This document shows positions 1,891 to 29,353 of a stretch of 33,306 bases of DNA, in pieces. Each line of letters starts with the position of its first letter. Within the stretch, counting starts at the first letter, position 1. This stretch comes from a virus. The position numbers and the translations under genes are program-made. Location: positions 1 to 33,306 of IMG/VR virus record IMGVR_UViG_3300043331_000398; one strand, 5' to 3'. The notes beneath the pieces were generated by a model. That model was not told the DNA's origin and did not search any database. It saw only the letters and a program-made list of their open reading frames with translations.

Positions 1891-1898
1891 GCCGATAA
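1891..1898 (+). promoter_or_regulatory. Candidate sigma-28-type -10 element GCCGATAA
   Basis: This is an exact match to the FliA/WhiG -10 consensus GCCGATAA. It lies in the gap between the phosphoesterase stop and the next gene. A TACA tetramer lies about 17 bases upstream, a weak -35. The expected start is near 1904. The phage encodes a sigma factor of this class at 22907. Confidence 0.55.
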
Positions 1899-1922
1899 CT
1901 AAATATGTAAGTGATTTTAAGT

Positions 1923-1950
1923 AGCCGGGAGCTTACAAAGCCTCCCGGCT
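1923..1950 (+). other. GC-rich 9-bp leader hairpin
   Basis: AGCCGGGAG (1923-1931) pairs perfectly with CTCCCGGCT (1942-1950) around a 10-nt loop. GTAAG (1907-1911) and CTTAC (1951-1955) could extend it with a bulge. It lies downstream of the candidate promoter at 1891 and upstream of the GTG start at 1974. There is no T-tract, so it looks more like a stable 5' leader than a terminator. Confidence 0.6.
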
Positions 1951-1973
1951 CTTACTTTATAAGGCAGGTAACG

Positions 1974-2372
1974 GTGGAGGTAATTCAAGGTGCATTAGAT
2001 GCAGTAGGGCCGTGGATCGGTACTATCGGCCCGTTGCCGTTGCTTTTCATTGCGCTAGTTAGGGGTTGGTTACTTACTCCTGCCGCAGTGCAGAAAGTTC
2101 ATGAGTCTCAGGAAGCCAGAATTTCTGAGATGAAGGCAAACTATGAAGCCAGAATCGCTGAATCCAAAGAACGAGAGAAGGAATGGCGAGATAAGGCAGG
2201 TGAAGCTTTGACTATTTTGAATGAGCAGACAAAGCAATTCGATGTGGTGACAGAATTAGGAGAAACTTCTGTTAAGCTTCTAGAAGCTGTCCACAGTGCA
2301 CGCTTTGGTAATTCTGACGAGACACGACAGGTCCGAACCACTCACGTAGTACGTCCGGGTAGGGAGGGCTAA
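1974..2372 (+). CDS. Small membrane-anchored coiled-coil protein
   Basis: The product is 132 residues from GTG 1974, which has AAGGCAGG about nine bases upstream. An upstream in-frame GTG at 1911 would put the leader hairpin inside the gene and lacks a ribosome site. Residues 8-35 are hydrophobic (GTIGPLPLLFIALVRGWLL) and probably span the membrane. Residues 40-95 are strongly charged with a helical heptad-like pattern (ARISEMKANYEARIAESKER), so a coiled coil is likely. It is the first gene of a block behind the promoter at 1891. I do not recognise the family. A role in head morphogenesis, membrane contact or lysis cannot be separated from sequence alone. Confidence 0.6.
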   Translation: MEVIQGALDAVGPWIGTIGPLPLLFIALVRGWLLTPAAVQKVHESQEARISEMKANYEARIAESKEREKEWRDKAGEALTILNEQTKQFDVVTELGETSVKLLEAVHSARFGNSDETRQVRTTHVVRPGREG

Positions 2373-2373
2373 A

Positions 2374-2553
2374 ATGTCTGATCGTAGTCGAGAAGAGCAG
2401 AGGGAATTGGATACTGCTCAAGCACAGCTAGATAAAGCTAAAGCATCAACCGATAAGAGATCAGAAAAGGTTGACGATTTAACTACTAGACTCCGAGAGC
2501 TTAGAAGAAAAAATCATTTTCGTCTGATGCTTGAAGAAATTTTTTATGAGTAA
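2374..2553 (+). CDS. Small charged coiled-coil protein
   Basis: A 59-residue gene starts at ATG 2374 behind a strong AGGGAGGG site and ends at TAA 2551. The product is almost wholly charged and helical (QLDKAKASTDKRSEKVDDL, then TTRLRELRRKN), with a likely coiled coil and no hydrophobic segment. It starts one base after the preceding stop, so the two are probably co-translated and may interact through their coiled coils. It contains ACCGATAA near 2448, which I treat as chance inside a gene. Function unknown. Confidence 0.6.
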   Translation: MSDRSREEQRELDTAQAQLDKAKASTDKRSEKVDDLTTRLRELRRKNHFRLMLEEIFYE

Positions 2554-2567
2554 GTGGGAGGCGATAA

Positions 2568-2939
2568 ATGCTAGACTTATGGGGTAACGTTGGCTTCCTC
2601 GTACTGACATTTGGATCTTTACTTTTTACAGTATCATTTTTACTGGGATCTAAATTCTACAAAACATTCATGGGATGGGTTATTGCAGTATTCGTTACTG
2701 CTTTAACTGTGCTCTGCTTGTATTTCAGCCTTAGGGTTTGGGAAATTGCTATTCCTGGAGTTGAATGGGTTAGATTAATAATCTTTTGGGTTCTTGGACT
2801 ATCTTTAGTCTCTGGCGCTATCGGGTTCTTAGAGATCCAATTTGGGAAACGTGGTGAAGCTCTTCGTGCTCGGCTAGCCGCAAAGCAGAAGCTTTTTGAC
2901 GATTTACAAGATAAGAAACCCAATACTAAGGAGGGCTAA
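2568..2939 (+). CDS. Small integral membrane protein
   Basis: The product is 123 residues from ATG 2568 with GGGAGG upstream. Three hydrophobic segments are visible: about residues 7-26, 34-56 (WVIAVFVTALTVLCLYFSL) and 66-87 (LIIFWVLGLSLVSGAIGFL). A charged C-terminal tail follows (GEALRARLAAKQKLFDDL). It sits in a tight block with the two coiled-coil genes upstream and the acidic protein downstream. Membrane proteins are unusual between capsid and connector genes. A holin-like role is possible, but a better holin candidate lies after the tail genes. Family not recognised. Confidence 0.6.
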   Translation: MLDLWGNVGFLVLTFGSLLFTVSFLLGSKFYKTFMGWVIAVFVTALTVLCLYFSLRVWEIAIPGVEWVRLIIFWVLGLSLVSGAIGFLEIQFGKRGEALRARLAAKQKLFDDLQDKKPNTKEG

Positions 2940-2941
2940 TT

Positions 2942-3592
2942 ATGCCGCCACGCAAGAGAGCTGCCAAGGCAGCATCCCCAGCAGTTGATGAAACTGTAGT
3001 AAACCAGGAAAACCCTGGAACTTCTGATGAAGTTCGTCCATCTACAGAAACAACTGAAGAGCCAGAAGTAGCTAAGGTTGCTGAGGCAAACGATGTTGAT
3101 ATTACTGTTCATAACCAAGAAACTCCTGTAGTTGATGTTCAGGATCGTAGCGAGAAGACTAATGAAGGTAAGGATGAAAATCCTTACGTAGAAGTAGCTC
3201 CTGCTAATGAAGTTGATCCTACTGTGGAAAATCAGATGAATCCAGGAGTTAATATGGTTAATCGCACACCAGAGGATCAGGTTGTTACTGACTCTGCTGG
3301 TATCGAGTATAAGCTTAACAGCGGACCATATCCTGAATTAGTAGTAGAAGATGACGAAGAAGAAAAGAATGCCATCAAGCAGAGCACAGCAGTTCTAGAT
3401 GCTCGTGATCATGATGAGCTAGAGAAGCAGAACAAGATTTACTTTGTAAAATCTGGCCTTACTGCGCAACGTCGTGTATGGAAAAAGGGCGAGACTCTTT
3501 ATTACACAGATGAGCAGCATGAGGATTGGATGGATATGAGTGATCAGGATCAAGAAGAACGTTTCGGTCACGTAAAGTTTGAAAAGAGGTAA
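2942..3592 (+). CDS. Acidic virion-associated protein with three internal repeats
   Basis: The product is 216 residues. It begins with a basic patch (MPPRKRAAKAASP) and becomes strongly acidic. Three imperfect copies of a motif of the form D-x-T-V-x-N-Q-x-x-P begin at residues 16, 53 and 92. The last two share the longer frame V-A-x-A-N-x-V-D-x-T-V-x-N-Q. After residue 115 comes a different, probably folded part (GIEYKLNSGPYPELVVED, then FVKSGLTAQRRVWKKGETLYY). The start has AAGGAGGG upstream. Its position next to the connector genes suggests a minor head protein or decoration factor. I do not recognise the family. Confidence 0.6.
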   Translation: MPPRKRAAKAASPAVDETVVNQENPGTSDEVRPSTETTEEPEVAKVAEANDVDITVHNQETPVVDVQDRSEKTNEGKDENPYVEVAPANEVDPTVENQMNPGVNMVNRTPEDQVVTDSAGIEYKLNSGPYPELVVEDDEEEKNAIKQSTAVLDARDHDELEKQNKIYFVKSGLTAQRRVWKKGETLYYTDEQHEDWMDMSDQDQEERFGHVKFEKR

Positions 3593-3595
3593 GCC

Positions 3596-4135
3596 ATGGC
3601 GCTAGTGCCACCTACAGTAGCAGAGCTAGCTATCTTTACAGGTCGTCAGAGCGATACTTTTTCTGATTTCGCTGTACAGGCACTAGCCCAGGCCACCCTA
3701 TTATTTTATTTGGCTACAGAGCTATCAGCCTACCCAAACACCCCTGAGCTAGAGCAGCTAGCCAGGAACGGAATCCTGGACATGGCAGATAACATCTACC
3801 TGTCTCAGGATTATCGTGAGGATATGGCTAGTCCATATCAATCTGAGAGTATTGGATCTTATTCTTACAGTAAAGCAATCAAGGCTGTACGTAAGGGTGA
3901 TGCTACCGGCATTATGTGGTTCGACCTTGCTGTCAACAAATTGAAGCAAGGAACCGGTATTGGAGACACAGGATCTATTCAGGGTATGGAGTGGGATGGC
4001 CTGGAGCTTACTAGCGATGGTAAGCCAAGAATTGCTGGAGCTAAGTCCATCAGCAAGCACGGCAGTAAGGGTGCCTGGGAAATCGATTACAGAGACACCA
4101 ACAGAATTGAATATAACTGGGAGGATGTGCTATGA
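3596..4135 (+). CDS. Head-tail connector (adaptor) protein
   Basis: The product is 179 residues from ATG 3596 with AGAGG upstream. The N-terminal half is helical (VAELAIFTGRQ, then FAVQALAQATLLFYLATELS) and resembles the first connector of HK97- or SPP1-like phages (gp6/gp15 type), which binds beneath the portal ring. The C-terminal part ends with a charged tail. It is the first of four overlapping genes that together make the neck. The call rests on fold impression, size and gene order rather than a diagnostic motif. Confidence 0.6.
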   Translation: MALVPPTVAELAIFTGRQSDTFSDFAVQALAQATLLFYLATELSAYPNTPELEQLARNGILDMADNIYLSQDYREDMASPYQSESIGSYSYSKAIKAVRKGDATGIMWFDLAVNKLKQGTGIGDTGSIQGMEWDGLELTSDGKPRIAGAKSISKHGSKGAWEIDYRDTNRIEYNWEDVL

Positions 4136-4548
4136 GGCATCTATTCAATTCTAAAGTAGAAATCTTGGAATCTGTTACTGACATTATTGATGGCGCAAGA
4201 GTACAGACTTGGGCAAAGTCTTCTGCACGATTTGATAATGTTTCCGCTCCCGGTGAAATGAAATGCAGATTAGATCTTAGCTTTTTACGTGTAGGTAAAG
4301 ATGCTCCTGCACCTATTGTTGCAGGCCGATCACCAGACAGGACTGGAGTATTGTTTTGCAACAATACTCCAAATTTAAAAGCAGGTCACATCATTAAGGT
4401 AATCGAAGGCCCGCACACTGGCTCACAGTTTCTTATTAAAATGAGGCCGGATGAAGCCCAAAATCGTCGCAGAACTCATCATCTTGAAGTTCAAGTTTTT
4501 GAGGTTAACCAGGCAGGATTCAGCTATCCATCAGGAGCGCCGGTATGA
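4132..4548 (+). CDS. Head closure (stopper) protein
   Basis: The product is 138 residues, overlapping the previous gene by ATGA, which indicates translational coupling. The sequence is beta-rich: SKVEILESVTDIIDGARVQ at the start, LKAGHIIKVIEGPHTGSQFL in the middle and HHLEVQVFEV near the end. This fits SPP1 gp16-like head closure proteins, which seal the channel after packaging and provide the tail docking surface. The assignment comes from order (connector, stopper, gp10-like, tail terminator) and this pattern. No catalytic residues are expected. Confidence 0.55.
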   Translation: MRHLFNSKVEILESVTDIIDGARVQTWAKSSARFDNVSAPGEMKCRLDLSFLRVGKDAPAPIVAGRSPDRTGVLFCNNTPNLKAGHIIKVIEGPHTGSQFLIKMRPDEAQNRRRTHHLEVQVFEVNQAGFSYPSGAPV

Positions 4549-4907
4549 TCAAGATTGAGTTGATTGATGATGGTATTTTCAAGGAGATCGATAGGCTTTC
4601 AGAAGGTCTGAGTCTAGAAGATAGAATGCGTTTTGAAGCCATCCTTGTTCGTCAATTCCAAGCTACACAAGCTGCTGTTCACGTAATTACCAGATCTTTG
4701 AAGACTTCTGGTAAATTCAATTCTGAAGGCGATAGTAATAGTTGGAAAGGCGAGATCACATACGGTGGAAGATCAAAAGGTATTCATAATCCTGTAGACT
4801 ACGCCGAGTATGAGCGTGAAAGAGGCGGGGCTCACGATTTTCTACGTCCAGCACAGGCTATGGAGGCAGCTTATGAAGCTGCTATCAGAGAGTTTTTGGA
4901 GGGTTGA
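4545..4907 (+). CDS. HK97 gp10-like tail completion protein
   Basis: The product is 120 residues, with an ATGA overlap with the stopper gene. A helical N-terminal half (RMRFEAILVRQFQATQAAVH) is followed by a short beta region and then YAEYERERGGAHDFLRPA. The phrase HDFLRPA near the end, before a closing helix, is typical of the HK97 gp10 family found between connector and tail terminator genes. The protein is thought to help join tail and neck. It ends within the TGATG overlap with the next gene. Confidence 0.65.
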   Translation: MIKIELIDDGIFKEIDRLSEGLSLEDRMRFEAILVRQFQATQAAVHVITRSLKTSGKFNSEGDSNSWKGEITYGGRSKGIHNPVDYAEYERERGGAHDFLRPAQAMEAAYEAAIREFLEG

Positions 4908-5383
4908 TGGCTAAACTAGAAGGTGAATTAGTTAAGTATCTTCTTACCCTGCCAGAATTAGTATCTGCGGTAGGTAAGTTTACCCTCACCCAAAAGCCTT
5001 TTATTTTTCGTGATGAGATGTTGGTTAATTTAGAAGATAATCAGTACACTGCTGTAAGTGCTGTAGTAGTTGAAGATGGTGGACCGTTAGATACCAATGC
5101 TCTGACGAGATTTAGAGCAAGAAGAGTCGCTGTGCATATCTGGGCTAACGGTAATAGAGATGCTTTAGGTAATCTTGTAAATCCTACAGTAGTAGATGAT
5201 AAAATTGAAACTACTTTTGCAGTGTTAGACAAATATTTGCACAGGACAGATCCTGAAGCTGTTTGGTGGGGTACAGTGCTTACTCAAGCTTCAGACAGGC
5301 TTGGCGATATCAGTAAGCCTGTGCCTGTAATTGATGGTGATGGTATCAAACTTGCTACAGTATACTACTCTGTATTATTCTAA
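4907..5383 (+). CDS. Tail terminator protein
   Basis: The product is 158 residues from ATG 4907, which overlaps the previous stop (TGATG) and has GGAGGG just upstream. The preceding TTG 4904 is less likely. The sequence alternates strands and helices, with FRARRVAVHIWANG in the middle and ATVYYSVLF at the end. This fits a small ring-forming tail terminator that caps the tail tube. Position just before the tail tube gene supports this, although a glycosyltransferase and a small gene intervene. Confidence 0.6.
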   Translation: MAKLEGELVKYLLTLPELVSAVGKFTLTQKPFIFRDEMLVNLEDNQYTAVSAVVVEDGGPLDTNALTRFRARRVAVHIWANGNRDALGNLVNPTVVDDKIETTFAVLDKYLHRTDPEAVWWGTVLTQASDRLGDISKPVPVIDGDGIKLATVYYSVLF

Positions 5384-5390
5384 CCGATAA
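5383..5390 (+). promoter_or_regulatory. Candidate sigma-28-type -10 element ACCGATAA
   Basis: Seven of eight bases match GCCGATAA. The site is in the short gap after the tail terminator stop, 33 bases before the glycosyltransferase start. TACT lies about 17 bases upstream as a possible -35. The expected start is near 5396, inside the left arm of the inverted repeat at 5389-5436. Confidence 0.5.
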
Positions 5391-5436
5391 TACCTTTAGC
5401 TACGAGAATCCCAGGAGGATATATGCTAAAGGTATT
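5389..5436 (+). repeat. 12-bp inverted repeat spanning leader and start codon
   Basis: AATACCTTTAGC (5389-5400) and GCTAAAGGTATT (5425-5436) are perfect complements. The right arm begins at the G of the ATG start (5423-5425), and the AGGAGG site lies in the 24-nt loop. Read-through mRNA would hold the start codon in a stem. mRNA begun at the promoter at 5383 would lack most of the left arm. Confidence 0.7.
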
Positions 5437-6538
5437 ATTGAAAACTCCGATGTCTGTCTATTCCGGGTACGGTAACGATGGCATTGGAATAGCTAGAGCT
5501 TTGGTGCGATCAGGAGCTGATGTGTATCTTCAGCCAACTCACGTAGATGCACCACTTCCAGAAGACATTGCAATGCTGCTTACTAAACGCTTGGTGTCTC
5601 CTTTTGATCTACTCATACATCATGTAGACCCTATGCAATTCGGCCTACTTCCTGAAGAACGTAGAGCATCCAAGGTTACTGTAGGATGGACTATGTGGGA
5701 ATATGACAGCTTCGGTAATATGAAGGGTCGATCCAATCTTAAAACCTCCTTGAAGAATTATGATCTAGTATTAGGTTATGATGATGTAACATTGGAATGT
5801 TTCAAGCCGTATAAGCGCCGAAACCAAGCTTTAGGCGTGCTGCAAGGAGGATTCATTCCTGAAGATTGGCCTTTTGTAGAACGTGACTGGTTCAGCGACC
5901 GTTTCGGGTTTGCCATGTGTGGAGCATTAAGTTTGCGCAAAGATCCTTTCGTAGCTATCGAAGCTTTCAGGGAATTAAAATTAGAACTTCCAGAAGAATT
6001 TGATAAAGCTGAGCTACATCTTAAAACTATCACGCCAGGACTCCATTCAGCTATGGAGGCATGGGTACCTAAACTCCGCGTACATTATGCATCATGGCCT
6101 GAGGATGTATTAAGAGAATTCTATTCTTTCCAGCATGTACTGTTAGCGCCATCTCGTGGGGAGGGTAAGAATATGCCCGCACTTGAATTCATGTCTACTG
6201 GCGGAACAGTAATTGCTACTAATTGGGGTGGGCATACAGGATGGCTATCTCCTGAGTATGCGTATCCTCTTGACTATAAACTTATGCCTCTAGATGATAA
6301 CCCTAATGTGCGAAATGCTCGTGCTAGCAAGGAGCATATGAAACAACTTATGCTTCACACATTTAGGCATAGGGCCGAGGTTAAGAAGAAGGCGGAGCTG
6401 GCTGCTGAGGTTATTCCTCAAATGATGCATTGGGATAAGGTAGTACAGAGACTATACTCTCGCATCACCGATCTAGTCCCAGGTAAGGGTACAGAAATTA
6501 TTCAGAAAACTGCCATGCGAGGTGTTGAAAATGCATAA
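5423..6538 (+). CDS. GT4-type glycosyltransferase
   Basis: The product is 371 residues with a GT-B layout. The N-terminal half opens with MLKVLLKTP and a glycine-rich YSGYGNDGIG. The C-terminal half carries the EX7E motif of GT4-family retaining transferases (E247 to E255, in RGEGKNMPALEFMSTGG), followed by VIATNWGGHTGWL. It would transfer a nucleotide-activated sugar. The gene lies between tail terminator and tail tube with its own candidate promoter and hairpin. Glycosylation of virion proteins by such neighbours is known in some actinophages, so tail tube or capsid modification is a reasonable inference. The acceptor and sugar cannot be read from sequence. Confidence 0.75.
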   Translation: MLKVLLKTPMSVYSGYGNDGIGIARALVRSGADVYLQPTHVDAPLPEDIAMLLTKRLVSPFDLLIHHVDPMQFGLLPEERRASKVTVGWTMWEYDSFGNMKGRSNLKTSLKNYDLVLGYDDVTLECFKPYKRRNQALGVLQGGFIPEDWPFVERDWFSDRFGFAMCGALSLRKDPFVAIEAFRELKLELPEEFDKAELHLKTITPGLHSAMEAWVPKLRVHYASWPEDVLREFYSFQHVLLAPSRGEGKNMPALEFMSTGGTVIATNWGGHTGWLSPEYAYPLDYKLMPLDDNPNVRNARASKEHMKQLMLHTFRHRAEVKKKAELAAEVIPQMMHWDKVVQRLYSRITDLVPGKGTEIIQKTAMRGVENA

Positions 6539-6773
6539 TGAAGAATTTGTATCACCAAAAGGCAGCATAGAAATTCGGTGCCCGGGAAGATTTAGAAAAC
6601 TATTTCTAGTGTTAAAGCGCGATACCATGCCTCAGCCAGGAATGTACATGGAGATCGCCTGTGCTGATTGCGCTAAAGACGCAAGAAGAGATTATCCTAA
6701 TACCGCTAGAATTCTGCATTACTATGATACATCTGGAAACTGTGTAAAAACCAAGCTAGTACCTGGAGAATAG
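6531..6773 (+). CDS. Small zinc-ribbon-like protein
   Basis: The product is 80 residues from ATG 6531, with GCGAGG upstream and an eight-base overlap with the glycosyltransferase end. Cysteines at residue 17 (IEIRCPGRF), at 44 and 47 (IACADCAK) and one near the C-terminus suggest a metal-bound fold. Small actinophage proteins with an IEIRC...C..C pattern resemble Com-like zinc ribbons, which can bind RNA, but that link is tentative. The overlap suggests expression with the glycosyltransferase. Function unknown. Confidence 0.55.
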   Translation: MHNEEFVSPKGSIEIRCPGRFRKLFLVLKRDTMPQPGMYMEIACADCAKDARRDYPNTARILHYYDTSGNCVKTKLVPGE

Positions 6774-6781
6774 ACAATATT

Positions 6782-6789
6782 GCCGATGT
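6782..6789 (+). promoter_or_regulatory. Candidate sigma-28-type -10 element GCCGATGT
   Basis: Six of eight bases match GCCGATAA, and the core GCCGAT is intact. It lies in the gap before the tail tube gene, with an expected start near 6796. TACC lies about 19-22 bases upstream. The same GATGTAAT variant recurs before the tail fibre gene at 19579. Confidence 0.45.
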
Positions 6790-6813
6790 AATTATCGTGT
6801 TCTAAAAAGTGCG

Positions 6814-6828
6814 GGCGACAGGCTCGCC
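6814..6828 (+). other. Leader hairpin before tail tube gene
   Basis: GGCGA (6814-6818) pairs with TCGCC (6824-6828) around a 5-nt loop, downstream of the candidate promoter at 6782 and 13 bases before the GTG start. It resembles the arrangement at 1923-1950 and may stabilise the 5' end of an abundant mRNA. Confidence 0.45.
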
Positions 6829-6841
6829 TAGAAAGAAGAAG

Positions 6842-7414
6842 GTGAGTACAATCGCAGGAACAAATTTTGAAGGCTTTTCTATTAGCCATGCAGCTATCCT
6901 AGATGGTACTGACGGTACTGAAGAAGAGTTCGGCGATATTTACGGCGTACGTTCAGGTACTATTGCAGCAGATACAGGTAACTACGATAACACAGGTGAC
7001 GACTACGTATTGTCATCTTGGTTCTGGCTAAACTTCGCCACCGTTACTGTTGAAGCTGGATATCTACCGTTCCAGACTATCGCCCTATTATCCGGCGCAA
7101 CTCTAACCTCTTCAGGTTCCGGTGCAGCTACCACATATGAGCTTGGTCTATGGGAGGAAGACTCTGTTAACCAGCCAGCCCGCCCAATGCTTATCCGTGT
7201 ACCGTCCAAGGACTCTGATGGTGCTGTTAGGACTATGGATTTCATTCTGTATAAGGTGATCTTCGGCCCTATCAACTTCACCGGTCCGTCCTATAAGTCA
7301 GGTCTATTGCTTAACTACACAGGTCGAGCAGTTATCTCAGATAAGGATGAAAAGGGTGTAGCTCTACCAGGCGGTAAGCGTGCAATCGGACGTGTAGTTA
7401 ACCGCGCTGTCTAA
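6842..7414 (+). CDS. Major tail tube protein
   Basis: The product is 190 residues from GTG 6842, preceded by a purine-rich AGAAGAAG. GTG 6809 is in frame but lies at the leader hairpin with no ribosome site. The sequence is beta-rich and begins STIAGTNFEGFSISHAAIL. It contains long turns and a C-terminal strand region (ILYKVIFGPINFTGPSYKSG), as expected for the tube subunit that stacks around the tape measure. Position immediately before the chaperone and tape measure genes is diagnostic. It has its own candidate promoter, consistent with high expression, and may be a target of the nearby glycosyltransferase. Confidence 0.75.
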   Translation: MSTIAGTNFEGFSISHAAILDGTDGTEEEFGDIYGVRSGTIAADTGNYDNTGDDYVLSSWFWLNFATVTVEAGYLPFQTIALLSGATLTSSGSGAATTYELGLWEEDSVNQPARPMLIRVPSKDSDGAVRTMDFILYKVIFGPINFTGPSYKSGLLLNYTGRAVISDKDEKGVALPGGKRAIGRVVNRAV

Positions 7415-19578: not shown

Positions 19579-19586
19579 ACCGATGT
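19579..19586 (+). promoter_or_regulatory. Candidate sigma-28-type -10 element ACCGATGT
   Basis: The CCGATGTAAT string is identical to that before the tail tube gene (6783). It lies in the gap between hub and fibre genes, 38 bases before ATG 19624. The expected start is near 19593. No convincing -35 was found. Confidence 0.4.
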
Positions 19587-19623
19587 AATCAAAGAGATTT
19601 CAGAAACCTTGGAGGTAATACTT

Positions 19624-20724
19624 ATGGCATCTAGCACACCACGTGTCGGATTCTACATGCCTGACGATGATGGTACAGAGCCTATTAATGTCGCTACAGA
19701 TCTTAATGATAATCTAGAAAAACTAGATTCCTCTATTGGCTTTGTTCCGGCAACGGAAGCTTTGCCTCCATCAACCGTGTACGATGGTATGGCTAGGTAC
19801 AACACCGATTCTGGCAAAGCTTCATTCTGGCATGCAACTGCGGCAGCATGGACTCAGTTATTGACAGCAGGTACTACATTCTTGAGCAATCTCTTACTAG
19901 GAGATGCTGTCAGAATTGGTATTGGTACTATTACTCCTTCAGCTATTCTTGACGTTATCGTTAACAACATTACTACAGCACCGTTAGCTAAGTATGCTCA
20001 AAGCGGTGAATCTTTTCATCGCTTACAGATCGATCATGATGGTATTCGTTGGGGAGACGGAACCATTTCTCCAGAGACAAGGCTATATCGACCGGCGGCT
20101 AATCAGTTAAGCATTGTTGGTAGCGTTGCTATGGCAAATGATTTAAGCGTTACCGGAACTGTTGCTACAACCGATCTTAACGTATCTGGTGACTTCAATG
20201 TCGGAGGAAATGTTACTGGAGATTTGCAAATTGTTGGTGGAGCAGTCATTACTGGCATACTAGAAGGTGATGGAATAAATGTACCTATAGTATTGAGAAA
20301 AACTGCGGCAAGCACCAGAACTAACACTACCGTAATGGCTGTAGAGACTGATTTCAATTATGATTTAGATGCTAACAGTAGTTATCTTGTAGAGCTTATT
20401 ATGGTATACGCAGGCCCGTCTGATGTTAAAGTTGGATGGAATTTCCCAGCAGGTACTACAGGTACTAGGTGGTTGTCCGGTATGCCTTCAACAGGAACCA
20501 ACAGCAATGATACTACTTTGGTTATTGCTGCTACAGGTATTACCACTGAATATCCGTACGGTACGCACAACTCTACTGCGTATCAGCACATCAGAGATGA
20601 AATGTGTATTACTACAGGTGGAACCGCAGGACAGTTACAAATGAAATGGGCACAGGTAACAGCTAACGCTACAGCCGCAACAATGCGAGAGAATTCAATT
20701 CTTCGTATTACTAAAGTTGCGTAA
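19624..20724 (+). CDS. Tail fibre protein
   Basis: The product is 366 residues from ATG 19624 with TTGGAGG upstream. The in-frame TTG at 19609 overlaps that ribosome site and is rejected. The N-terminus (STPRVGFYMPDDDGTEPINV, then DLNDNLEKLDSSIG) resembles virion attachment segments of actinophage fibres. The middle has short hydrophobic repeats typical of a beta-helical shaft (DLNVSGDFNVGGNVTGDLQI). The C-terminal 150 residues share a domain with the 14118-14939 protein (SYLVELIMVYAGPSDVKVGW). It probably recognises the host surface. It has its own candidate phage-sigma promoter. Confidence 0.7.
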   Translation: MASSTPRVGFYMPDDDGTEPINVATDLNDNLEKLDSSIGFVPATEALPPSTVYDGMARYNTDSGKASFWHATAAAWTQLLTAGTTFLSNLLLGDAVRIGIGTITPSAILDVIVNNITTAPLAKYAQSGESFHRLQIDHDGIRWGDGTISPETRLYRPAANQLSIVGSVAMANDLSVTGTVATTDLNVSGDFNVGGNVTGDLQIVGGAVITGILEGDGINVPIVLRKTAASTRTNTTVMAVETDFNYDLDANSSYLVELIMVYAGPSDVKVGWNFPAGTTGTRWLSGMPSTGTNSNDTTLVIAATGITTEYPYGTHNSTAYQHIRDEMCITTGGTAGQLQMKWAQVTANATAATMRENSILRITKVA

Positions 20725-20745
20725 TGAGTGAAAATGATCTACAAT
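20717..20745 (+). promoter_or_regulatory. Sigma-70-like promoter TTGCGT-17-TACAAT
   Basis: TTGCGT (20717-20722) and TACAAT (20740-20745) are 17 bases apart. TACAAT differs from TATAAT at one base. The expected start is near 20752, at the left end of the 18-bp palindrome. It would drive holin, the 55-aa gene, the SNF2-like ATPase and the sigma factor. Confidence 0.55.
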
Positions 20746-20781: not shown

Positions 20782-21126
20782 ATGGGTCCAGAACTACTAG
20801 TCCTAGGTGCCTTTGTTAAGAAGGCTGTGGACTTTGTACGAAACTTGCGCGGAAGAGATATGAATGCCGTACTTACTCAGCTTCTTGCTTGGGTTTCTGG
20901 TGTAGTCGTTGTGTGGCTAGCTGCACATGTAGACTTTGCATCAGCCGTAGAAGTTGCTAATGTAAGTCTTGATCAGATGAGTCTTTGGACTCAGGCTGCA
21001 CTAGGTGTTCTTCTAGGTTCCGGTGCATCTATCGGTCAGGACTTGCTGAAGAGTATTGACAATACTCAGAGCGAAGCAAAGCCTAAGCTAGTACCAGGAG
21101 CAGACAATTCAACAGCAAACAGGTAA
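20782..21126 (+). CDS. Putative holin / membrane protein
   Basis: The product is 114 residues from ATG 20782 with a strong AGGAGG site. A hydrophobic segment lies at about residues 35-52 (AWVSGVVVVWLAAHVDF). A second, weaker one at 70-90 (LWTQAALGVLLGSGASIGQD) is followed by a charged tail. Small membrane proteins with this layout after the tail fibre genes of actinophages are usually annotated as holins, which time cell lysis by opening the inner membrane. No endolysin gene is adjacent, which weakens the call. Its promoter is sigma-70-like, not of the phage-sigma type. Confidence 0.5.
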   Translation: MGPELLVLGAFVKKAVDFVRNLRGRDMNAVLTQLLAWVSGVVVVWLAAHVDFASAVEVANVSLDQMSLWTQAALGVLLGSGASIGQDLLKSIDNTQSEAKPKLVPGADNSTANR

Positions 21127-21133: not shown

Positions 21134-21301
21134 GTGACGAGCCGACTCCGCAGAGCTACTACCCTGGACACCGCCAAGTATGCTACACTAGTAGCTGAGG
21201 CGATAGACGCATTTGGGCGTGATCCCATGTATGCTGTTCAGGTTGCGGAGTCGGCTCGTTCTATGTCTTCAAAAAAGAAACGTAAAACACCTAAGGAGTA
21301 A
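21134..21301 (+). CDS. Small basic protein (55 aa)
   Basis: An open frame from GTG 21134 to TAA 21299 fills the gap between holin and SNF2-like genes. It encodes 55 residues: a short basic start (TSRLRRATT), an amphipathic helix (TAKYATLVAEAIDAFGRD) and a lysine-rich tail (SSKKKRKTPKE). The ribosome site is weak (ACAGG). The next gene begins three bases after the stop, with its AAGGAG site inside this frame. A 15-bp inverted repeat spans both ends of the gene. It could be a small nucleic acid binding protein, or the region could mainly be a structured RNA. Family not recognised. Confidence 0.5.
   Translation: MTSRLRRATTLDTAKYATLVAEAIDAFGRDPMYAVQVAESARSMSSKKKRKTPKE
21138..21258 (+). repeat. 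15-bp inverted repeat bracketing the 55-aa gene
   Basis: CGAGCCGACTCCGCA (21138-21152) is exactly complementary to TGCGGAGTCGGCTCG (21244-21258). One more pair (21137 with 21259) extends it. The 91-nt interior has a second pair of arms, AGCTACTA and TAGTAGCT (about 21154-21161 and 21192-21199). As RNA it would sequester the start region of the 55-aa gene. Confidence 0.75.
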
Positions 21302-21303: not shown

Positions 21304-22905
21304 GTGCTGTTTGAAGTGCAAAAGTTGCCACCTAAGAAAAAGGCAGCCCTTGCAGAGAAGGTCAGAAATGTAAAGGATATAAAACTTCCTGAGTTAAAAT
21401 ACTTCAACAGCTCTCCTTGTGCTAATCATTCTGAGATCGATCCTGCATGTCAACAGTGCGGGATCGTTTTCCGTAAGCATCAGAGAGTCGGAGTAGCATG
21501 GCTCTTTCTAGCAGAAAAAGGATTGCTAGCAGATAGTGTAGGTACAGGTAAGACTATTCAAGCTGCTGGAACTATTGCAGCAATGAAAGAGGCTGGAGAA
21601 CTTGAAGACGATAAAGCTCTAGTTATTTGCAGACCTTCTGCGGTAGATCAGTGGAAAGCACAGCTTCAACGTCTTCTACCAGATTTGAAAATCATCGTAG
21701 CTGCTGGCGCTAAAGATAAGCGCATCGCTAAATATGAGTCAGCAGATTGGGATGTCTGTATTATGGGAGCCCCAATCATCATCAACGATCTTGAACAACT
21801 CGACTTGTGTTTTAATTATCGAGCTGTATTTGTTGATGACGTAGATCCGCTCCGTAATGGAGATACCGCCACAGCTTATGCCCTCAAGAGGATCTCTCGC
21901 TTCTCTCCAAGAGTTTACGTGCTTACAGGTACACCGCTACAGAAGCGTTTGCAAGATCTGTATAATATTCTATTGATCCTGGGTGGTCGAGAGATTCTAG
22001 GTTCTCCTATCAGTTTTGAGCGTAGATATCTCGACAAACAGAGAGTAGAAATGGCTACGGCCTCAGGGAATATTGCAGTAAAAAATCAAGTAGTGGGCTA
22101 CAGGAATCTAGGAGAATTCAAGGAAAAGATTGCACACCTGTCTCTGCGCCGAACCGCAGATGATATTGATGATGTGGATCTACCTGCGATTACTCCTGCT
22201 AATGTGTTTCTTGAGCCGTACCCTGCTCAAATAGCCAAGTATAAAGAACTTCGCCAGGGTGTTCTACGCATTATTCGTGAGCACGGTGAAGAAGTTAAAC
22301 GAGCAACAGCTATTTCTATCTTCAATTATGGCGCTCAGATTTGTGGCGGTTTAGCTACCATCGGAGAACCTGACAATCCTCAGACTTCTATTAAATTAGA
22401 TTGGGTGGAGGAAAAGCTTGTTGATGGAGACCTGTCTGATGAGAAGGTAGTTGTTTTCATTAGATTTAAGAATGGTGTTCGTGCTCTCATGGCTAGATTA
22501 GATCGAGCGGGAGTAGGTTACACCACTATTTGGGGAGAAAATAAGAGTAACGCAGAGAAGTTTTCTAATCAGCAAGAATTCTGGAATAATCCTAACTGTA
22601 GAGTTTTGATCGGAACAAACTCTATCGAGCAGTCCTTGAATCTTCAGGTTGCAAGACACTTGATTAATGTAGATATGATTATGAATCCATCACGTATGGA
22701 ACAGCTTGCTGGTCGCATCAGGCGAGATGGGTCACGATTCAGTACTGTATTCGTACACAATCTTTTGACTGTGGGGACACAAGAAGAAAAGTACTTACCA
22801 GCATTGCAACGTGAGCAAGCTCTTATTGATTATGTTTGGGATTCCAAGAGTGAATTGTTTGATGCGCTATCCCCACTAGAAATGCTTTCTATGATTGGAG
22901 GATAG
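21304..22905 (+). CDS. SNF2-like superfamily 2 helicase/ATPase
   Basis: The product is 533 residues from GTG 21304 with AAGGAG upstream. A zinc-ribbon-like cluster precedes the helicase core (C39, H42, C49, C52). Motif I is SVGTGKT (78-84). Motif II reads VDDVD (177-181) instead of the usual DEAH. Motif III is LTGTP (207-211). The C-terminal half contains GTNSIEQSLNLQVARHLINV and EQLAGRIRRDG, matching motifs V and VI. SNF2-type ATPases move along duplex DNA and remodel protein-DNA or branched structures. In phages they are linked to replication, repair or recombination. The gene overlaps the ribosome site of the sigma gene. Confidence 0.85.
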   Translation: MLFEVQKLPPKKKAALAEKVRNVKDIKLPELKYFNSSPCANHSEIDPACQQCGIVFRKHQRVGVAWLFLAEKGLLADSVGTGKTIQAAGTIAAMKEAGELEDDKALVICRPSAVDQWKAQLQRLLPDLKIIVAAGAKDKRIAKYESADWDVCIMGAPIIINDLEQLDLCFNYRAVFVDDVDPLRNGDTATAYALKRISRFSPRVYVLTGTPLQKRLQDLYNILLILGGREILGSPISFERRYLDKQRVEMATASGNIAVKNQVVGYRNLGEFKEKIAHLSLRRTADDIDDVDLPAITPANVFLEPYPAQIAKYKELRQGVLRIIREHGEEVKRATAISIFNYGAQICGGLATIGEPDNPQTSIKLDWVEEKLVDGDLSDEKVVVFIRFKNGVRALMARLDRAGVGYTTIWGENKSNAEKFSNQQEFWNNPNCRVLIGTNSIEQSLNLQVARHLINVDMIMNPSRMEQLAGRIRRDGSRFSTVFVHNLLTVGTQEEKYLPALQREQALIDYVWDSKSELFDALSPLEMLSMIGG

Positions 22906-22906
22906 T

Positions 22907-23629
22907 ATGCAAGTAGAGCAATTAATTGCTGACCATATGTATTTAGCAGAGCAGATCGGAAGATCAGAATGGCTTACAGCTACACACGCTCTTGATAAAC
23001 AAGAAATGCTCAGTCTAGCTTATTTTGGACTTGTCGATGCCGCAAATAGGTGGGAAGGGTACTGCGCCAAGAAGAATTATGATCCTGGCGCAGTACAGTT
23101 CTTTAAAGTGTTCGCTAGGTTGCGTATCCGAGGAACGATTCGAGACCATCTTAGGAATGAAGATCGTGAAAAAGGAGCATCAAGAACCTTACGTACTAAG
23201 GCAAAAAAGCTAAAGGAAGCAGGTCAAGACGAAGGACTACCTGTAGAAATTCTCTCCGAGAGAACCGGCTTTTCTGTTGCTGACATAAATAAGGTTAATG
23301 CTAGGCTAGGTATTAAAAGAGTAAGTTTAGATGCACCTATTGCTAGCGCTGACGGAGATATGGATTTCTGGGGAGATCAAGTGCAAGATGATATCGACAC
23401 AGAATCTAATGTTTTTGTAAACGAGATCATGGATACCTTTGTATCTACTTTCAAGATTCTTCCTCCAGACCAGCAAGTAGTAATTGCATTGTGCTATTAT
23501 GGTAGACTAGATATTCGCAAGGTAGCTGAAGAGTTGGGAATACCCGAAGCTAAGGTTTCTCAGCTACATGTTCAGGCAGTAAACACCGTACAGCAAGCAA
23601 TGTATAGTGTTGCTCAGGAGAGAGGTTAA
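22907..23629 (+). CDS. Sigma factor, sigma-28 (FliA/WhiG) class
   Basis: The product is 240 residues from ATG 22907 behind GGAGG. Residues 30-85 match region 2, ending in RLRIRGTIRDHLRNED, like the RIRGAI-D-LR core of FliA and WhiG. Residues 108-145 look like region 3 (LPVEILSERTGFSVADINKV). Residues 175-235 match region 4, with LPPDQQVVIALCYYG and the helix-turn-helix EAKVSQLHVQAV, close to the SRVSQIH pattern of this class. It should direct host RNA polymerase to GCCGATAA-type promoters, and six such sites lie in intergenic or leader positions in this window. No anti-sigma gene is evident nearby. Confidence 0.85.
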   Translation: MQVEQLIADHMYLAEQIGRSEWLTATHALDKQEMLSLAYFGLVDAANRWEGYCAKKNYDPGAVQFFKVFARLRIRGTIRDHLRNEDREKGASRTLRTKAKKLKEAGQDEGLPVEILSERTGFSVADINKVNARLGIKRVSLDAPIASADGDMDFWGDQVQDDIDTESNVFVNEIMDTFVSTFKILPPDQQVVIALCYYGRLDIRKVAEELGIPEAKVSQLHVQAVNTVQQAMYSVAQERG

Positions 23630-24064: not shown

Positions 24065-24065
24065 T

Positions 24066-24332
24066 ATGGGCAGACTTAAAAGTAAAAAGAGCGTTCCAGC
24101 ATTTAATAAGCCTCGTATTGAAGTAGGTGGCAGTATAAACCGCGAGTGGAGACAAACCTCAGCCATCGATCTAGTTGAAGGTGATACGATTGCTGGCGCA
24201 GGGCTTGTAGTCAAGGCAACTGTAGCGTATGATCCTTACAAGGTAGTCGTACACGCGGGGTACCCGGAATCTAAGATGTGGGTATATAACGCTTGGGATG
24301 AAGTATTGGCTTTTGTTAGAAAGGATAATTAA
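24066..24332 (+). CDS. Hypothetical protein
   Basis: The product is 88 residues from ATG 24066, with AGGAG at 24056 inside the dUTPase end. It has a basic start (MGRLKSKKS) and a beta-rich centre (EGDTIAGAGLVVKATVAYDP). Near the end is an aromatic helix, MWVYNAWDEVLAFVRKD. No family recognised. It sits in a tight chain between dUTPase and the helicase and overlaps the helicase start by one base (TAATG), so it is likely co-expressed with the replication genes. Confidence 0.6.
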   Translation: MGRLKSKKSVPAFNKPRIEVGGSINREWRQTSAIDLVEGDTIAGAGLVVKATVAYDPYKVVVHAGYPESKMWVYNAWDEVLAFVRKDN

Positions 24333-25813: not shown

Positions 25814-25815
25814 TA

Positions 25816-25823
25816 CCCGATAA
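25816..25823 (+). promoter_or_regulatory. Candidate sigma-28-type -10 element CCCGATAA
   Basis: Seven of eight bases match GCCGATAA, three bases after the helicase stop codon. TATG lies about 19 bases upstream as a possible -35. The expected start is near 25829, giving a short leader before ATG 25863. Confidence 0.45.
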
Positions 25824-25862
25824 TATCGATAGTACATGTGCCGCCTGAAAGGGGCTATAGAT

Positions 25863-26066
25863 ATGGAAACATTAGTTAGTACAGATCGTTGTGACCGTTG
25901 CGGAGCCCAGGCATACGTAAGGGTTAATAATGGAGAACTAGAATTAGATTTTTGCGGGCACCATTACACTAAACTTGCAGAAGATTTGGATTCTCAAGGA
26001 TTTATGATTGCTATAGATACCCGAGATCTACTTACTCGCCGTGCAGTTGGTGCTGAGGTAAGCTGA
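25863..26066 (+). CDS. DUF7455-like cysteine protein
   Basis: The product is 67 residues from ATG 25863. The upstream in-frame ATG 25836 would add residues with no ribosome site, whereas AAAGGGG precedes the chosen start. The sequence begins METLVSTDRCDRCGAQAYVR and continues to FCGHHY. This matches DUF7455, a small family of actinobacteria and their phages, and is the best single clue to host group. The Cys pair and the C-x-H-H likely bind zinc. Function unknown. It lies directly behind a candidate phage-sigma promoter. Confidence 0.75.
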   Translation: METLVSTDRCDRCGAQAYVRVNNGELELDFCGHHYTKLAEDLDSQGFMIAIDTRDLLTRRAVGAEVS

Positions 26067-26076
26067 GGAAAATAAA

Positions 26077-26649
26077 TTGTTGCGTCAGAATAGATCATGG
26101 ATCGACTTAGCTAATGAAAAAATTAGTATAACTGACGTTTTAACAACTCTTGGAATATATGTACCTACCAACGTCAAAGGTGGTGGGAGCAGAAAGGTGC
26201 ATTGCCCCTTCGGCTTCTACCACTCAGACGGTGGACTTTCCAAGGCGATGAGAGTATACTTACAATCTAATACAGTGTACTGTTTCTCATGCAGTAAACG
26301 TTACGGGCCTGTGGCTTTAGCGGCTGCAAAGTGGGATTGCTCCTGGGATAATGCTGCCTTCAGGTTACTGGAGGACTCAGGTTACAAGCCTAAGAGTATT
26401 AAAGAGCGTTGGGCAGAAGCTACTGCTGTGTCAGGGGAAGAGCCTCCTGACACTCTAGCCCTAGCTGAGGCTTTAAAAACCTATTGCTCAGGAATAAGCT
26501 CTGATTGGGACATCAGGCAGCTTGATGGAGATGTTGCCAGTACACTAGATAGTTGCTTAAAGTTACTTGATTCTGTTAAAACAGATGAGAGCGCTCTTAA
26601 GTGGTTGAAAACTTGTAAAGTTGTCATGGCTAGAAAGCTGGAAGCATGA
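26077..26649 (+). CDS. Primase zinc-binding (CHC2-like) domain protein
   Basis: The product is 190 residues from TTG 26077 with GAGGAA upstream; the next TTG is also possible. A zinc finger of the DnaG N-terminal type is formed by C43, H49, C69 and C72 (HCPFGFYHS, then VYCFSCS). In DnaG this domain helps choose the primer start site. No Toprim polymerase domain follows in this frame or in the genes after it. The protein may work with a host or distant phage primase, or as a priming accessory. The rest is helical and unassigned. Confidence 0.7.
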   Translation: MLRQNRSWIDLANEKISITDVLTTLGIYVPTNVKGGGSRKVHCPFGFYHSDGGLSKAMRVYLQSNTVYCFSCSKRYGPVALAAAKWDCSWDNAAFRLLEDSGYKPKSIKERWAEATAVSGEEPPDTLALAEALKTYCSGISSDWDIRQLDGDVASTLDSCLKLLDSVKTDESALKWLKTCKVVMARKLEA

Positions 26650-26843
26650 TGTCTCTAGATGAGCAAATTGATTTAGAAGTTAAGATGTATGTAGGGTATT
26701 GTGAAGCTGCTGCTCGCCACGATGCTTATGAGCAGCAGTATCGAATGTTAGCTCATGGTATCTTCTATCATATTCAGGAGCTGCGTTCCACAAAGAAGCA
26801 AAGCACACTCGGAAGAGTTATTCTACCGATTTCTTCTATGTAG
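26646..26843 (+). CDS. Small hypothetical protein
   Basis: The product is 65 residues from ATG 26646, or 64 from the adjacent ATG 26649. Both overlap the primase gene end. Residues 4-48 are probably two helices (DEQIDLEVKMYVGYCEAAAR, then QQYRMLAHGIFYHIQEL). No recognised family. Overlap with the upstream gene suggests coupled translation. Confidence 0.55.
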   Translation: MMSLDEQIDLEVKMYVGYCEAAARHDAYEQQYRMLAHGIFYHIQELRSTKKQSTLGRVILPISSM

Positions 26844-26852
26844 CAGAAGCTA
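26839..26852 (+). other. Small hairpin between genes
   Basis: GTAGC and GCTAC pair around a four-base AGAA loop, overlapping the stop of the small gene and lying just before the AGAGG site of the next gene. It has no T-tract. It may affect coupling between the two genes. Confidence 0.35.
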
Positions 26853-26870
26853 CTAAGAAAGAGGTGGATT

Positions 26871-27254
26871 ATGGCACAAGCAGATAAGTGGCACGAAACT
26901 AGAAAGGCTCGTATGGATTCTCTGTTCTCAGGAACTAAATTCCGTGTTGTAGAGGAAGTGAGATCAGATGAGCCTTTAGCTACGCCTTTAGGTTATAAGG
27001 TTAAGAATGGGTATAGGTTGACATCTACCGATGGAACTTCAAACATTGTTGTCGGTAAGACCTTGCTACGAACTCTTGATGCAGAGTACAATGCTATCGA
27101 AGAGATGCCTGAACCTAAGAGGCGCGGCCGTCCTCGTAAGCAACCTATCGAACAGGCTGAGGATTGGGCATCTAGAGATATTCCTAATGATGCTGAACAG
27201 ATTACCCAGCCAGGACCAACATATACTAATCCCAACGCAAATGAAAGCCTTTAG
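26871..27254 (+). CDS. Hypothetical protein with AT-hook-like motif
   Basis: The product is 127 residues from ATG 26871 with AGAGG upstream. The N-terminal 70 residues look like a small beta fold (SLFSGTKFRVVEEV, then GYRLTSTDGTSNIVVGKTLL). KRRGRPRKQP at about residues 83-92 is a typical AT-hook core (RGRP), which binds the minor groove of AT-rich DNA. The tail is polar. Position among replication genes suggests a DNA-binding accessory, perhaps at an origin, but this is inference. Confidence 0.6.
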   Translation: MAQADKWHETRKARMDSLFSGTKFRVVEEVRSDEPLATPLGYKVKNGYRLTSTDGTSNIVVGKTLLRTLDAEYNAIEEMPEPKRRGRPRKQPIEQAEDWASRDIPNDAEQITQPGPTYTNPNANESL

Positions 27255-27264
27255 GAGTTTATAA

Positions 27265-28050
27265 GTGCTTGTAGGACACGAGGGGGTAATTGGAGCATTA
27301 AGCTCACAGTTACCCCCTGTTTCTATCATTACCGGGCCTCCGTCTGTAGGTAAGCGTATGGTCGGCATCTATGCTGCAATGGTTCATAATGTAGCGCGAG
27401 TAGACTTTACTGAAGTTAGTAATCTTACAGTTGCTGAAGCTACTAGGGTTAAGCAGTTCATGAGTGTCAGTCCTATGCAGACATTGAAATATGCACTCAT
27501 AGATTTGGATGGATCATCTACTGCTGCAATCAATGATCTGCTGAAGACTCTGGAAGAGCCTCCAAGCTATGCCAGATTTACGCTAATTAGCTCAAGTAAG
27601 CTACCGGCTACCATACTGACCAGAGGCCATAAATACCGTGTAGGCTTGCTAAAAACAAATGAGTTAGAGCAAATTCTTCTCAATAAAGGATTACCTGCCG
27701 AAGATGCTAAAAGGTTTTCCACCTTCGGCAGAGTAGATTTAGCAATGAACGCCTACAACGATGTAGCAGCCAAGGCTAGTGCTATTACAATACTTCAAGC
27801 TGCGGCTAGCGGAGATTATGAACTTTTTTGTCAAGCTTGCAAGGCAATAGATGAAAATTCTGCTAGAATGATATTAGTAGCACTGGAGGAGTCAGCATCT
27901 CAGAGTTGGAAGTTGTTTAAGCCAGAGTATTTAGAGGTGTTCGGTAAAAGGCCAGCAGCTATGAAAATCTTAGCTGCATGGAGTGCTATATCTACTGCCA
28001 GACCACAACTAGCGGTGAGAGCCGCACTAGAATCAGTATTGAAAGGTTGA
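27265..28050 (+). CDS. Clamp loader AAA+ subunit (delta-prime/gamma-like)
   Basis: The product is 261 residues from GTG 27265 with TAGGAG upstream. The AAA+ core has GPPSVGKR in the P-loop position (near 24-31), where the usual Ser/Thr after Lys is Arg. ALIDLDG occupies the Walker B place. NDLLKTLEEPPSYARFTLIS is the clamp loader signature. LTRGHKY stands where bacterial subunits have the SRC motif. It is shorter than host DnaX (260 versus over 400 residues) and resembles delta-prime. It should help load a sliding clamp, together with the delta-like protein two genes later. Confidence 0.8.
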   Translation: MLVGHEGVIGALSSQLPPVSIITGPPSVGKRMVGIYAAMVHNVARVDFTEVSNLTVAEATRVKQFMSVSPMQTLKYALIDLDGSSTAAINDLLKTLEEPPSYARFTLISSSKLPATILTRGHKYRVGLLKTNELEQILLNKGLPAEDAKRFSTFGRVDLAMNAYNDVAAKASAITILQAAASGDYELFCQACKAIDENSARMILVALEESASQSWKLFKPEYLEVFGKRPAAMKILAAWSAISTARPQLAVRAALESVLKG

Positions 28051-28051
28051 C

Positions 28052-28381
28052 ATGTCAGACGAAGAAAGAACTGTAGGAGAATTCCTAGCAGACAAACAAG
28101 CAGCACTAAAAGAGATTAAAGATCTTCAGCAAGCTAATATCAATAAAATCAACGCATTAGCTAGATCAGGTAAAGGTGTCGATCCTACGATGCTAGCAAA
28201 TCTTAAGATCGACTTGATTGTAGAGATGTTCTTGGATGAAAACTCTAAATTGGTTTATGTAAGAAATCTTGAAATTGCCATTCGTGAGCAACTAGATGCG
28301 GCACTTGCTGAAGTTCGTAATGGTTTGGTACAAAAGCCTTCTACCCTTCTAATTCCAGGGAGGCCAGGCGTCGGCCTATGA
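28052..28381 (+). CDS. Hypothetical helical protein
   Basis: The product is 109 residues from ATG 28052 with GAAAGG upstream. It is mostly helical and charged (EFLADKQAALKEIKDLQQAN, later LEIAIREQLDAALAEVRNGL), ending in a proline- and glycine-rich tail. It lies between the two clamp loader genes and overlaps the second by four bases, so a role in that complex is possible. Family not recognised. Confidence 0.55.
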   Translation: MSDEERTVGEFLADKQAALKEIKDLQQANINKINALARSGKGVDPTMLANLKIDLIVEMFLDENSKLVYVRNLEIAIREQLDAALAEVRNGLVQKPSTLLIPGRPGVGL

Positions 28382-29328
28382 ATTTCAATCAGTGGAGAGC
28401 ACATGCCGACAAAGGTTCAGTAGCTAGAATTACATATGTCTGTGGTGATCAGCCAGCTTTAGTAGAATTGGTTGTTGATGACATCAAAAAAATTCTCGAT
28501 GTGCCAGTTATTGATTATGTAGAAGTATCTTCAGTAGAGGCATTTTGGGAAATCTCTAGCCAATATCCTTTGAAGGCAGGAGCTAACAGGCTTACTGTTG
28601 TACGAGATGCTGAGTTAATTGTTGATTGGAGCTACTTGAGTGAGTGGATCGAATACTCTCGCAGCATTCCAAACAACTATATTATATTCGTAGCATCTCA
28701 AGCTGATGCTCCAGCAGTATTCACAAAAGGGAAAAAGCAAGGATATCAAGAGCATATTGAACTTATCCGTACTAAGGGTAAATTCATAAAGTGCTCTACT
28801 CCTAATGATGAAGATCTTGTAAAGTGGATTCAAACATACGGCTTGAATCCAGCGGTTGCTGAGCATTTAGTGGAACGCACATCTGGTGACGTTACTACTA
28901 TTTTGAATGTTCTTCGTAAGGTTCATATTTGGAATGGTTCCCCCAGCTCTAAAGCTATTGATTTATTGTGCGAAGAGCTGGCGTTAGACCCGTTTTCAGA
29001 TTATCTGATACTCAAGGATAAGAAAAACGCTTACCTAGCGCTACAGAATATGTCAGAATCAGAAAGAGCTAAAATTATATCACAGCTAGATTATAGACTT
29101 GACATGCTGATGGAGATAGGCAAGCATGTACGTAGGCGTGCATATGATGGTGACATCGCAGCTAATACAGGAATCAAGATATTCCTGATCAAAAGATTCA
29201 AGTCAGCCGTCAAAGACTACGACAACAATAAGATCAAATACCATCGACAACTTCTGGCTGTTATTGATGCAGCCTGGAGAGATGGTAATCGTACAGGAGT
29301 TATGGAATCTCTCATAGCTTTGTGGTAA
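28378..29328 (+). CDS. DNA polymerase III delta-like clamp loader subunit
   Basis: The product is 316 residues, starting within an ATGA overlap. It follows the HolA plan: ITYVCGDQPALVELVVDDI at the N-terminus, NRLTVVRDAELIVDWSYL near residues 83-100, then CSTPNDEDLVKWIQTYGL and LVERTSGDVTTILNVLRKV. A helical C-terminal domain for ring assembly follows. HolA-type subunits open the sliding clamp. Its presence with a delta-prime-like partner suggests the phage brings its own loader for a clamp encoded outside this window or by the host. Confidence 0.75.
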   Translation: MNFNQWRAHADKGSVARITYVCGDQPALVELVVDDIKKILDVPVIDYVEVSSVEAFWEISSQYPLKAGANRLTVVRDAELIVDWSYLSEWIEYSRSIPNNYIIFVASQADAPAVFTKGKKQGYQEHIELIRTKGKFIKCSTPNDEDLVKWIQTYGLNPAVAEHLVERTSGDVTTILNVLRKVHIWNGSPSSKAIDLLCEELALDPFSDYLILKDKKNAYLALQNMSESERAKIISQLDYRLDMLMEIGKHVRRRAYDGDIAANTGIKIFLIKRFKSAVKDYDNNKIKYHRQLLAVIDAAWRDGNRTGVMESLIALW

Positions 29329-29345
29329 CCCTGAAAGTAACTCTT

Positions 29346-29353
29346 GCCGATAC
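29346..29353 (+). promoter_or_regulatory. Candidate sigma-28-type -10 element GCCGATAC
   Basis: Seven of eight bases match GCCGATAA, in the gap between the delta-like gene and the endonuclease gene. TAAC lies about 17 bases upstream. The expected start near 29360 leaves room for the AGAAGG site and ATG 29380. Confidence 0.5.

Follow-up and report, generated by a model that had tools for sequence, protein, structure and literature searches.

A viral sigma factor and a dispersed set of candidate late promoters

The viral contig IMGVR_UViG_3300043331_000398, whose 33,306 bases were analyzed in full and are hereafter called the window, encodes a sigma factor of the FliA/WhiG (sigma-28-like) class. 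Comparison with related viral contigs makes it very probable that this factor, with host core RNA polymerase, drives the late genes from promoters built on a -10 octamer, with the sigma operon itself read by a host sigma factor and a subset of the promoters carrying hairpins. Every gene called in this fragment lies on the plus strand, and the sequence spans the 3' end of the major capsid gene, the tail genes, the sigma operon and a replication module. The motif stands before capsid, tail and other late genes and holds the same positions in at least a dozen related viruses, which makes its use in activating those genes very probable.

In the mechanism that we propose, the sigma operon would first be transcribed from a host-sigma (sigma-70-like) promoter. 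The phage factor would then join host core RNA polymerase and turn on late transcription at promoters consisting essentially of the octamer NCCGATAN, with no sequence-specific -35 element and with transcription starting (+1) about 15-16 bases downstream of the octamer's first base. The genes activated would be those for the portal, scaffold, capsid, tail, fibre, glycosyltransferase and DUF7455 proteins. At the glycosyltransferase and portal promoters, the segment from -10 to +1 would double as the left arm of a hairpin, masking the start codon or ribosome-binding site. Transcripts reading through from upstream would contain this arm and be silent, and those started at the late promoter would lack it and be translatable.

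The sigma protein and its relatives

The gene at 22907-23629 (plus strand) encodes a protein of 240 residues with sigma regions 2, 3 and 4 and without region 1. The initial annotation had called this protein FliA/WhiG-like, and the family comparisons agree. FliA_WhiG was its best sigma-70 subfamily in NCBIfam (4.5e-24, vs 3.3e-12 for SigBFG, that is SigB/F/G), and its sequence matches in the PDB were FliA and WhiG (1e-8). FliA/WhiG factors are controlled by anti-sigma factors such as FlgM and RsiG, and FliA reads the -10 element through residues R74, D81 and R84. These three residues are invariant in the low-GC relatives, which retain the region 2.4 segment around them, RIRGxxxDxxR, and also the SQLH of region 4.2. 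An AlphaFold model (predicted local distance difference test, pLDDT, 79; predicted template modelling score, pTM, 0.45) supports the sigma fold only, and its top Foldseek matches were FliA and an RPSD model, the latter presumably B. subtilis sigma-D.

Seven viral contigs encode orthologues of this sigma at 43-58% identity, and nine further viral records match the sigma or the sigma profile, one of them weakly. Genome contigs were also tried as a source of sigma relatives, and none was confirmed. Among phages of the annotated collection, none matched the first 25 kb of the window at the DNA level; the nearest named relative is Microbacterium phage Magritte (OR553905), which is syntenic with it. 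Individual contigs are designated below by G numbers.

Candidate promoters in the window

The known -10 element of FliA/WhiG factors is GCCGATAA (PMC2859248, PMC8325347). Six octamers in the window had been listed initially as matches to it, and all six are present at those positions on the plus strand. The candidate -10 GCCGATAA (1891-1898, predicted +1 at 1906) lies about 75 nucleotides (nt) upstream of the likely start of the gene at 1974-2372 and has an orthologous site in G006. The second, ACCGATAA (5383-5390, predicted +1 at 5398), precedes the glycosyltransferase gene (5423-6538); its A at 5383 doubles as the final base of the upstream stop codon, and the site is retained in all low-GC relatives tested. 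Upstream of the major tail protein gene (start 6809 or 6842, end 7414) stands GCCGATGT (6782-6789, predicted +1 at 6797), with orthologous sites in G001 and G002. The tail-fibre gene (19624-20724) follows ACCGATGT (19579-19586, predicted +1 at 19594), the orthologues of which read ACCGATAC in G003 and G005 and CCGATTT in G001, G002 and G006. Before the DUF7455 gene (25863-26066) is CCCGATAA (25816-25823, predicted +1 at 25831), with orthologues 35-40 nt upstream of the start in G001-G004 and G006. The weakest of the six, supported in the window only, is GCCGATAC (29346-29353, predicted +1 at 29361), before the endonuclease VII gene (likely start 29380, end 29883).

Within the window alone, the excess of the motif is real but modest. 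Allowing at most one mismatch, GCCGATAA occurs 29 times vs 18.9 +/- 4.4 in shuffled sequence, a count reached by 2 of 100 shuffles. Among 6-mers enriched in the gaps between genes, CCGATA ranks second. With the HNH gene counted as coding, gaps make up 7.7% of the window and hold 4 of the 6 plus-strand copies of CCGATA (binomial, 5e-4) and 6 of the 13 copies of CCGAT[AG] (2e-4). A de novo search of the gaps placed ttgCCGATaa first, by a marginal score (23.4 vs 22.0 for the best of 15 simulated sets). Two further copies had gone unlisted: a perfect GCCGATAA at 31983-31990, inside the HNH endonuclease gene (31557-32024) and about 77 nt upstream of the gene for DNA polymerase I, and a copy of ACCGATAA at 2449, inside a small gene.

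Enrichment and conservation across relatives

Pooling six low-GC genomes gave a far stronger signal. We scored the zone 15-60 nt before start codons that follow a gap, which amounts to 3.2% of the sequence, and CCGATA ranked first of all 6-mers there, with 20 of its 60 copies in the zone (10^-14.8). The preference holds in the coding direction only, as 4 of 54 copies of the reverse complement fell in the same zone. Distances to the start codon peaked at 30-39 nt for CCGATA and at 50-80 nt for TTGACA, as expected for a -10 and a -35 element, respectively. De novo discovery by expectation maximization with a genome-wide background returned mostly AT-rich or Shine-Dalgarno-like patterns and was rerun with a gap background. 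The pooled low-GC relatives then yielded a motif with a log-likelihood score of 98.9 vs a null maximum of 33.5. Taken genome by genome, the search ranked CCGATA first in the window, G001 and G007 and close to first in G002, and it ranked TTGACA first in G005 and G006.

The motif also recurred in genomes held out from discovery. In four low-GC contigs obtained through their capsid protein, 14 of 40 CCGATA copies lay in the zone (10^-10.3), with a 14:1 strand bias, and in G008, held out and obtained through its sigma, 4 of 15 did so. All 13 major-capsid leaders available have one site, 119-134 nt upstream, in surroundings of diverged sequence; near-duplicates among them reduce the set to about eight distinct backgrounds, and 3 of the 13 come from genomes used for motif discovery. 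In three unrelated phages, for which no sigma was detected, none of 51 copies lay in the zone. A chance explanation, in which a short motif without function was picked out by eye, would suit the modest excess seen in the window; it is refuted by the held-out genomes, and the orthologous leaders and the ranking against all 6-mers also speak against it, so that we regard it as extremely improbable. Enrichment in gaps across whole genomes, the strand bias, placement at orthologous genes, the held-out relatives and the sigma-less control all support the dispersed sites before late genes as predicted promoters.

A fixed register between the octamer and the predicted transcription start

A second conserved element lies downstream of the octamer. 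The trinucleotide [TA]A[AG] occurs at an offset of 14-16 at 18 of 40 sites, vs 1 of 25 genic copies. An independent register came from nine GC-rich or divergent genomes that bear the sigma, in which the distance from the end of a CCGATA octamer to a start codon is exactly 7 or 8 nt in 13 of 163 cases (0.44 expected, p 2.5e-15) and never 0-6 or 9-12 nt. At 7-8 nt, the head of the 6-mer ranking is taken by Shine-Dalgarno-like sequences only. The 13 genes, which include terminases, a portal and a scaffold, mostly have no evident Shine-Dalgarno sequence, and they look like genes with leaderless mRNAs in these GC-rich relatives. Octamers 7-8 nt before apparently leaderless starts place +1 at an offset of 15-16, in agreement with the [TA]A[AG] kept at 14-16. 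The register resembles that of E. coli aer, whose start has been mapped 6 bp past the octamer (PMC2859248); in the phage sites it is about two bases longer.

Two promoter classes and the sigma operon

Orthologous sites precede the portal, scaffold, major capsid, glycosyltransferase, major tail protein, tail-fibre and DUF7455 genes, and in G007 the terminase gene as well. Across three genomes, the structural module holds 23 of the 38 gap promoters of the sigma-28 type vs 5 of the 56 of the sigma-70 type (Fisher, 1e-7). Promoters resembling TTGACA/TATAAT lie mostly outside that module, one exception in G002 and G006 being the promoter of the sigma operon. We infer that the late class is read by the phage sigma, and read late.

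The sigma gene had been described as lying behind a sigma-70-like promoter. Such a promoter does exist (TTGCGT-17-TACAAT, 20717-20745, plus strand), about 2.1 kb upstream and before the first gene of the operon; no gap is present at the sigma gene itself. Elements with the same 17-bp spacing precede the sigma operon in seven contigs. The copy in the window is the weakest of these, and relatives have stronger ones at the orthologous place, such as TTGACT-17-TATACT and TTGATC-17-TATAAT. This arrangement fits the suggested relay from host sigma to phage sigma, with the weakness of the window's copy noted. Ahead of the sigma gene, all on the plus strand, are a 114-codon gene (20782-21126), a 55-codon gene with a GTG start (21134-21301) and, directly 5' of sigma, an SNF2/superfamily 2 helicase gene (21304-22905; Pfam SNF2-rel_dom, 1.6e-28). 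The 55-codon gene, which is absent from an open reading frame list cut at 60 residues, is matched by called genes in G005 and G006. Its DNA includes a long inverted repeat, CGAGCCGACTCC..GGAGTCGGCTCG, slightly altered versions of which are present in G001-G004.

The same promoters might instead be read by a FliA/WhiG-type sigma of the host, in place of the phage protein or alongside it, and the motif is indeed identical to the cellular FliA/WhiG -10. We consider this unlikely, as all motif-bearing relatives encode the sigma wherever the sigma region is covered, and the sigma gene adjoins the structural genes behind a sigma-70-like promoter of its own. G017 argues in the same direction. Its sigma is more diverged and has lost the SQLH of region 4.2, and gaps before its larger genes have GACGATAGTA instead of CCGATA, the gap motif having drifted to ACGATAGTA; this suggests that motif and sigma drift together.

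Predicted hairpins at a subset of the promoters

At the glycosyltransferase gene, a predicted 16-bp hairpin pairs a left arm at 5385-5400, running from -10 to +1, with a right arm at 5425-5440 that comprises the start and first codons (plus strand). The stem is supported by covariation: across six distinct versions, seven pairs have changed on both sides, more than any of 500 shuffles gave and well above slid controls. Where upstream sequence is available for the low-GC portal leaders, their left arm (CTCCTGCCGAT, or a variant of it) pairs with an arm containing the ribosome-binding site. In five portal examples, the site had a predicted accessibility of 0.00-0.18 in read-through RNA vs 0.56-0.83 in RNA beginning at +1. 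G009 has a 20-bp version of the hairpin at 44930. Over 60 sites, excess pairing was significant but partial (mean z -0.71 vs -0.30 and -0.07 in controls), and in the window the fibre and endonuclease VII leaders showed weaker, non-significant pairing. We rejected a hairpin as the rule at all sites; it belongs to a subset.

Other stems were seen near these promoters. At two sites, in G002 at 48160 and G006 at 50443, a stem of 15-22 bp includes the -10 in its left arm and leads from its right arm into a T tract, as a terminator would (the G002 stem being 20 bp long). At such stems, read-through transcription would stop and late-started RNA would pass. The window leaders at 1891-1974 (AGCCGGGAG..CTCCCGGCT) and 6782-6842 (GCGGGCGACAGGCTCGCC) hold GC-rich hairpins, which perhaps stabilize the mRNA.

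Observations that weigh against a sigma-28-class late regulon

The phage protein resembles cellular FliA/WhiG factors in domain order, -10-proximal residues and the -10 GCCGATAA (PMC2859248, PMC8325347), and it differs in being a phage gene with a regulon of late genes. Two further differences, and several other observations, count against our reading. The FliA_WhiG (TIGR02479) score of 85.4 bits is below the curated cut-off of 189.6 bits. FliA/WhiG promoters have a -35 TAAA, and none is detectable here despite the retained region 4: no column or tetramer of the aligned sites rose above chance at fixed or variable spacing, and TAAA was seen 4 times upstream vs 4.7 expected. About two thirds of CCGATA copies lie outside promoter position, and CCGATG variants, which account for two of the six sites in the window, are weakly enriched overall (7/55). 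In Magritte a CCGATA regulon is not clear. As to the hairpins, 18% of sites have one at p<=0.05, the portal arms are nearly invariant and their covariation is not above shuffles, and some excess pairing is seen in sigma-70-like leaders as well. Finally, in silico promoter predictions for phage 7-11 (PMC4331800) differ from the later experimental consensus (PMC8948821); relative to those, the present case has far more copies and cross-species conservation, and it is still a prediction.

The weak TANN tetramer first proposed as the -35 fared no better than TAAA, neither being detectable at any spacing. Loss of the -35 is plausible, since the contact of sigma-28 with this element is weak in E. 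coli (PMC10216364). Copies unaccompanied by a -35, and the placement of some in long palindromes, would also suit the alternative that NCCGATAN is not a promoter element, being instead an RNA-processing site or the site of another DNA- or RNA-binding regulator of the phage. Its identity to the FliA/WhiG -10, the sharp 7-8 nt position at leaderless starts, the conserved bases at the expected +1 and a distribution complementary to that of sigma-70-like promoters make this alternative very unlikely.

Magritte shares the syntenic structural and replication modules, and its sigma homologue, gp47 (annotated as a DNA binding protein), directly follows a helicase. It differs from the window in that its sigma is 29% identical and has lost the SQLH of region 4.2. 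Blocks of TTAGCGCG and TGCAATAAT in Magritte were rejected as regulon sites, as they resemble the spacers and -10 elements of sigma-70-like early promoters. Repeated TTGTGCGTTAGCGCGTGACGTGCAATAAT blocks before many small genes, at 87,000-116,000 of the Magritte record, look like early promoters with a shared spacer operator.

Comparison with known systems and implications

In phages phiEco32 (gp36) and 7-11 (gp47), host sigma serves the early genes and a phage sigma the late promoters, which are dispersed before structural genes (PMC8948821). The window is alike in having its sigma gene behind a host-type promoter and a common structural-gene motif distinct from host-type promoters, and the phiEco32 promoters are likewise single-element. 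The sigma classes and motifs differ, and phiEco32 gp36 is without region 4, which is kept here (PMC8948821). T4 also uses a late phage sigma, gp55, and its e, soc, 49 and I-TevI leaders are the nearest parallel to the hairpins; at gene e, the late promoter lies within the 5' strand of a hairpin, and the longer read-through RNA is silenced by that hairpin (PMC3014915). The glycosyltransferase and portal leaders show the same kind of pairing between the start codon or Shine-Dalgarno sequence and sequence upstream of the late start. Here the motif is of the sigma-28 class instead of TATAAATA, and the hairpins would guard portal and glycosyltransferase genes; the predicted placement of a promoter within an arm covering the start codon or ribosome-binding site of these two genes is new here. 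Our literature search, which covered open-licence PubMed Central papers, turned up no account of a late regulon of the sigma-28 class in a phage.

To our knowledge, phage sigma factors have often been annotated and their promoters defined for few. In this group, the cognate motif, start register and regulon can be read from the sequences of many uncultured phages, which provides directly testable late promoters and an apparent case of -10-only specificity in a sigma that retains region 4. We can extend this only tentatively, at somewhat under an even chance, to an actinophage-like family in which late sigma-28-class promoters without a -35 would be coupled to translation through hairpins, GC-rich members would use leaderless mRNAs, and the motif would drift with the sigma. 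The hairpins suggest that control of the T4 gene e type may be used by an unrelated group of phages for its structural genes.

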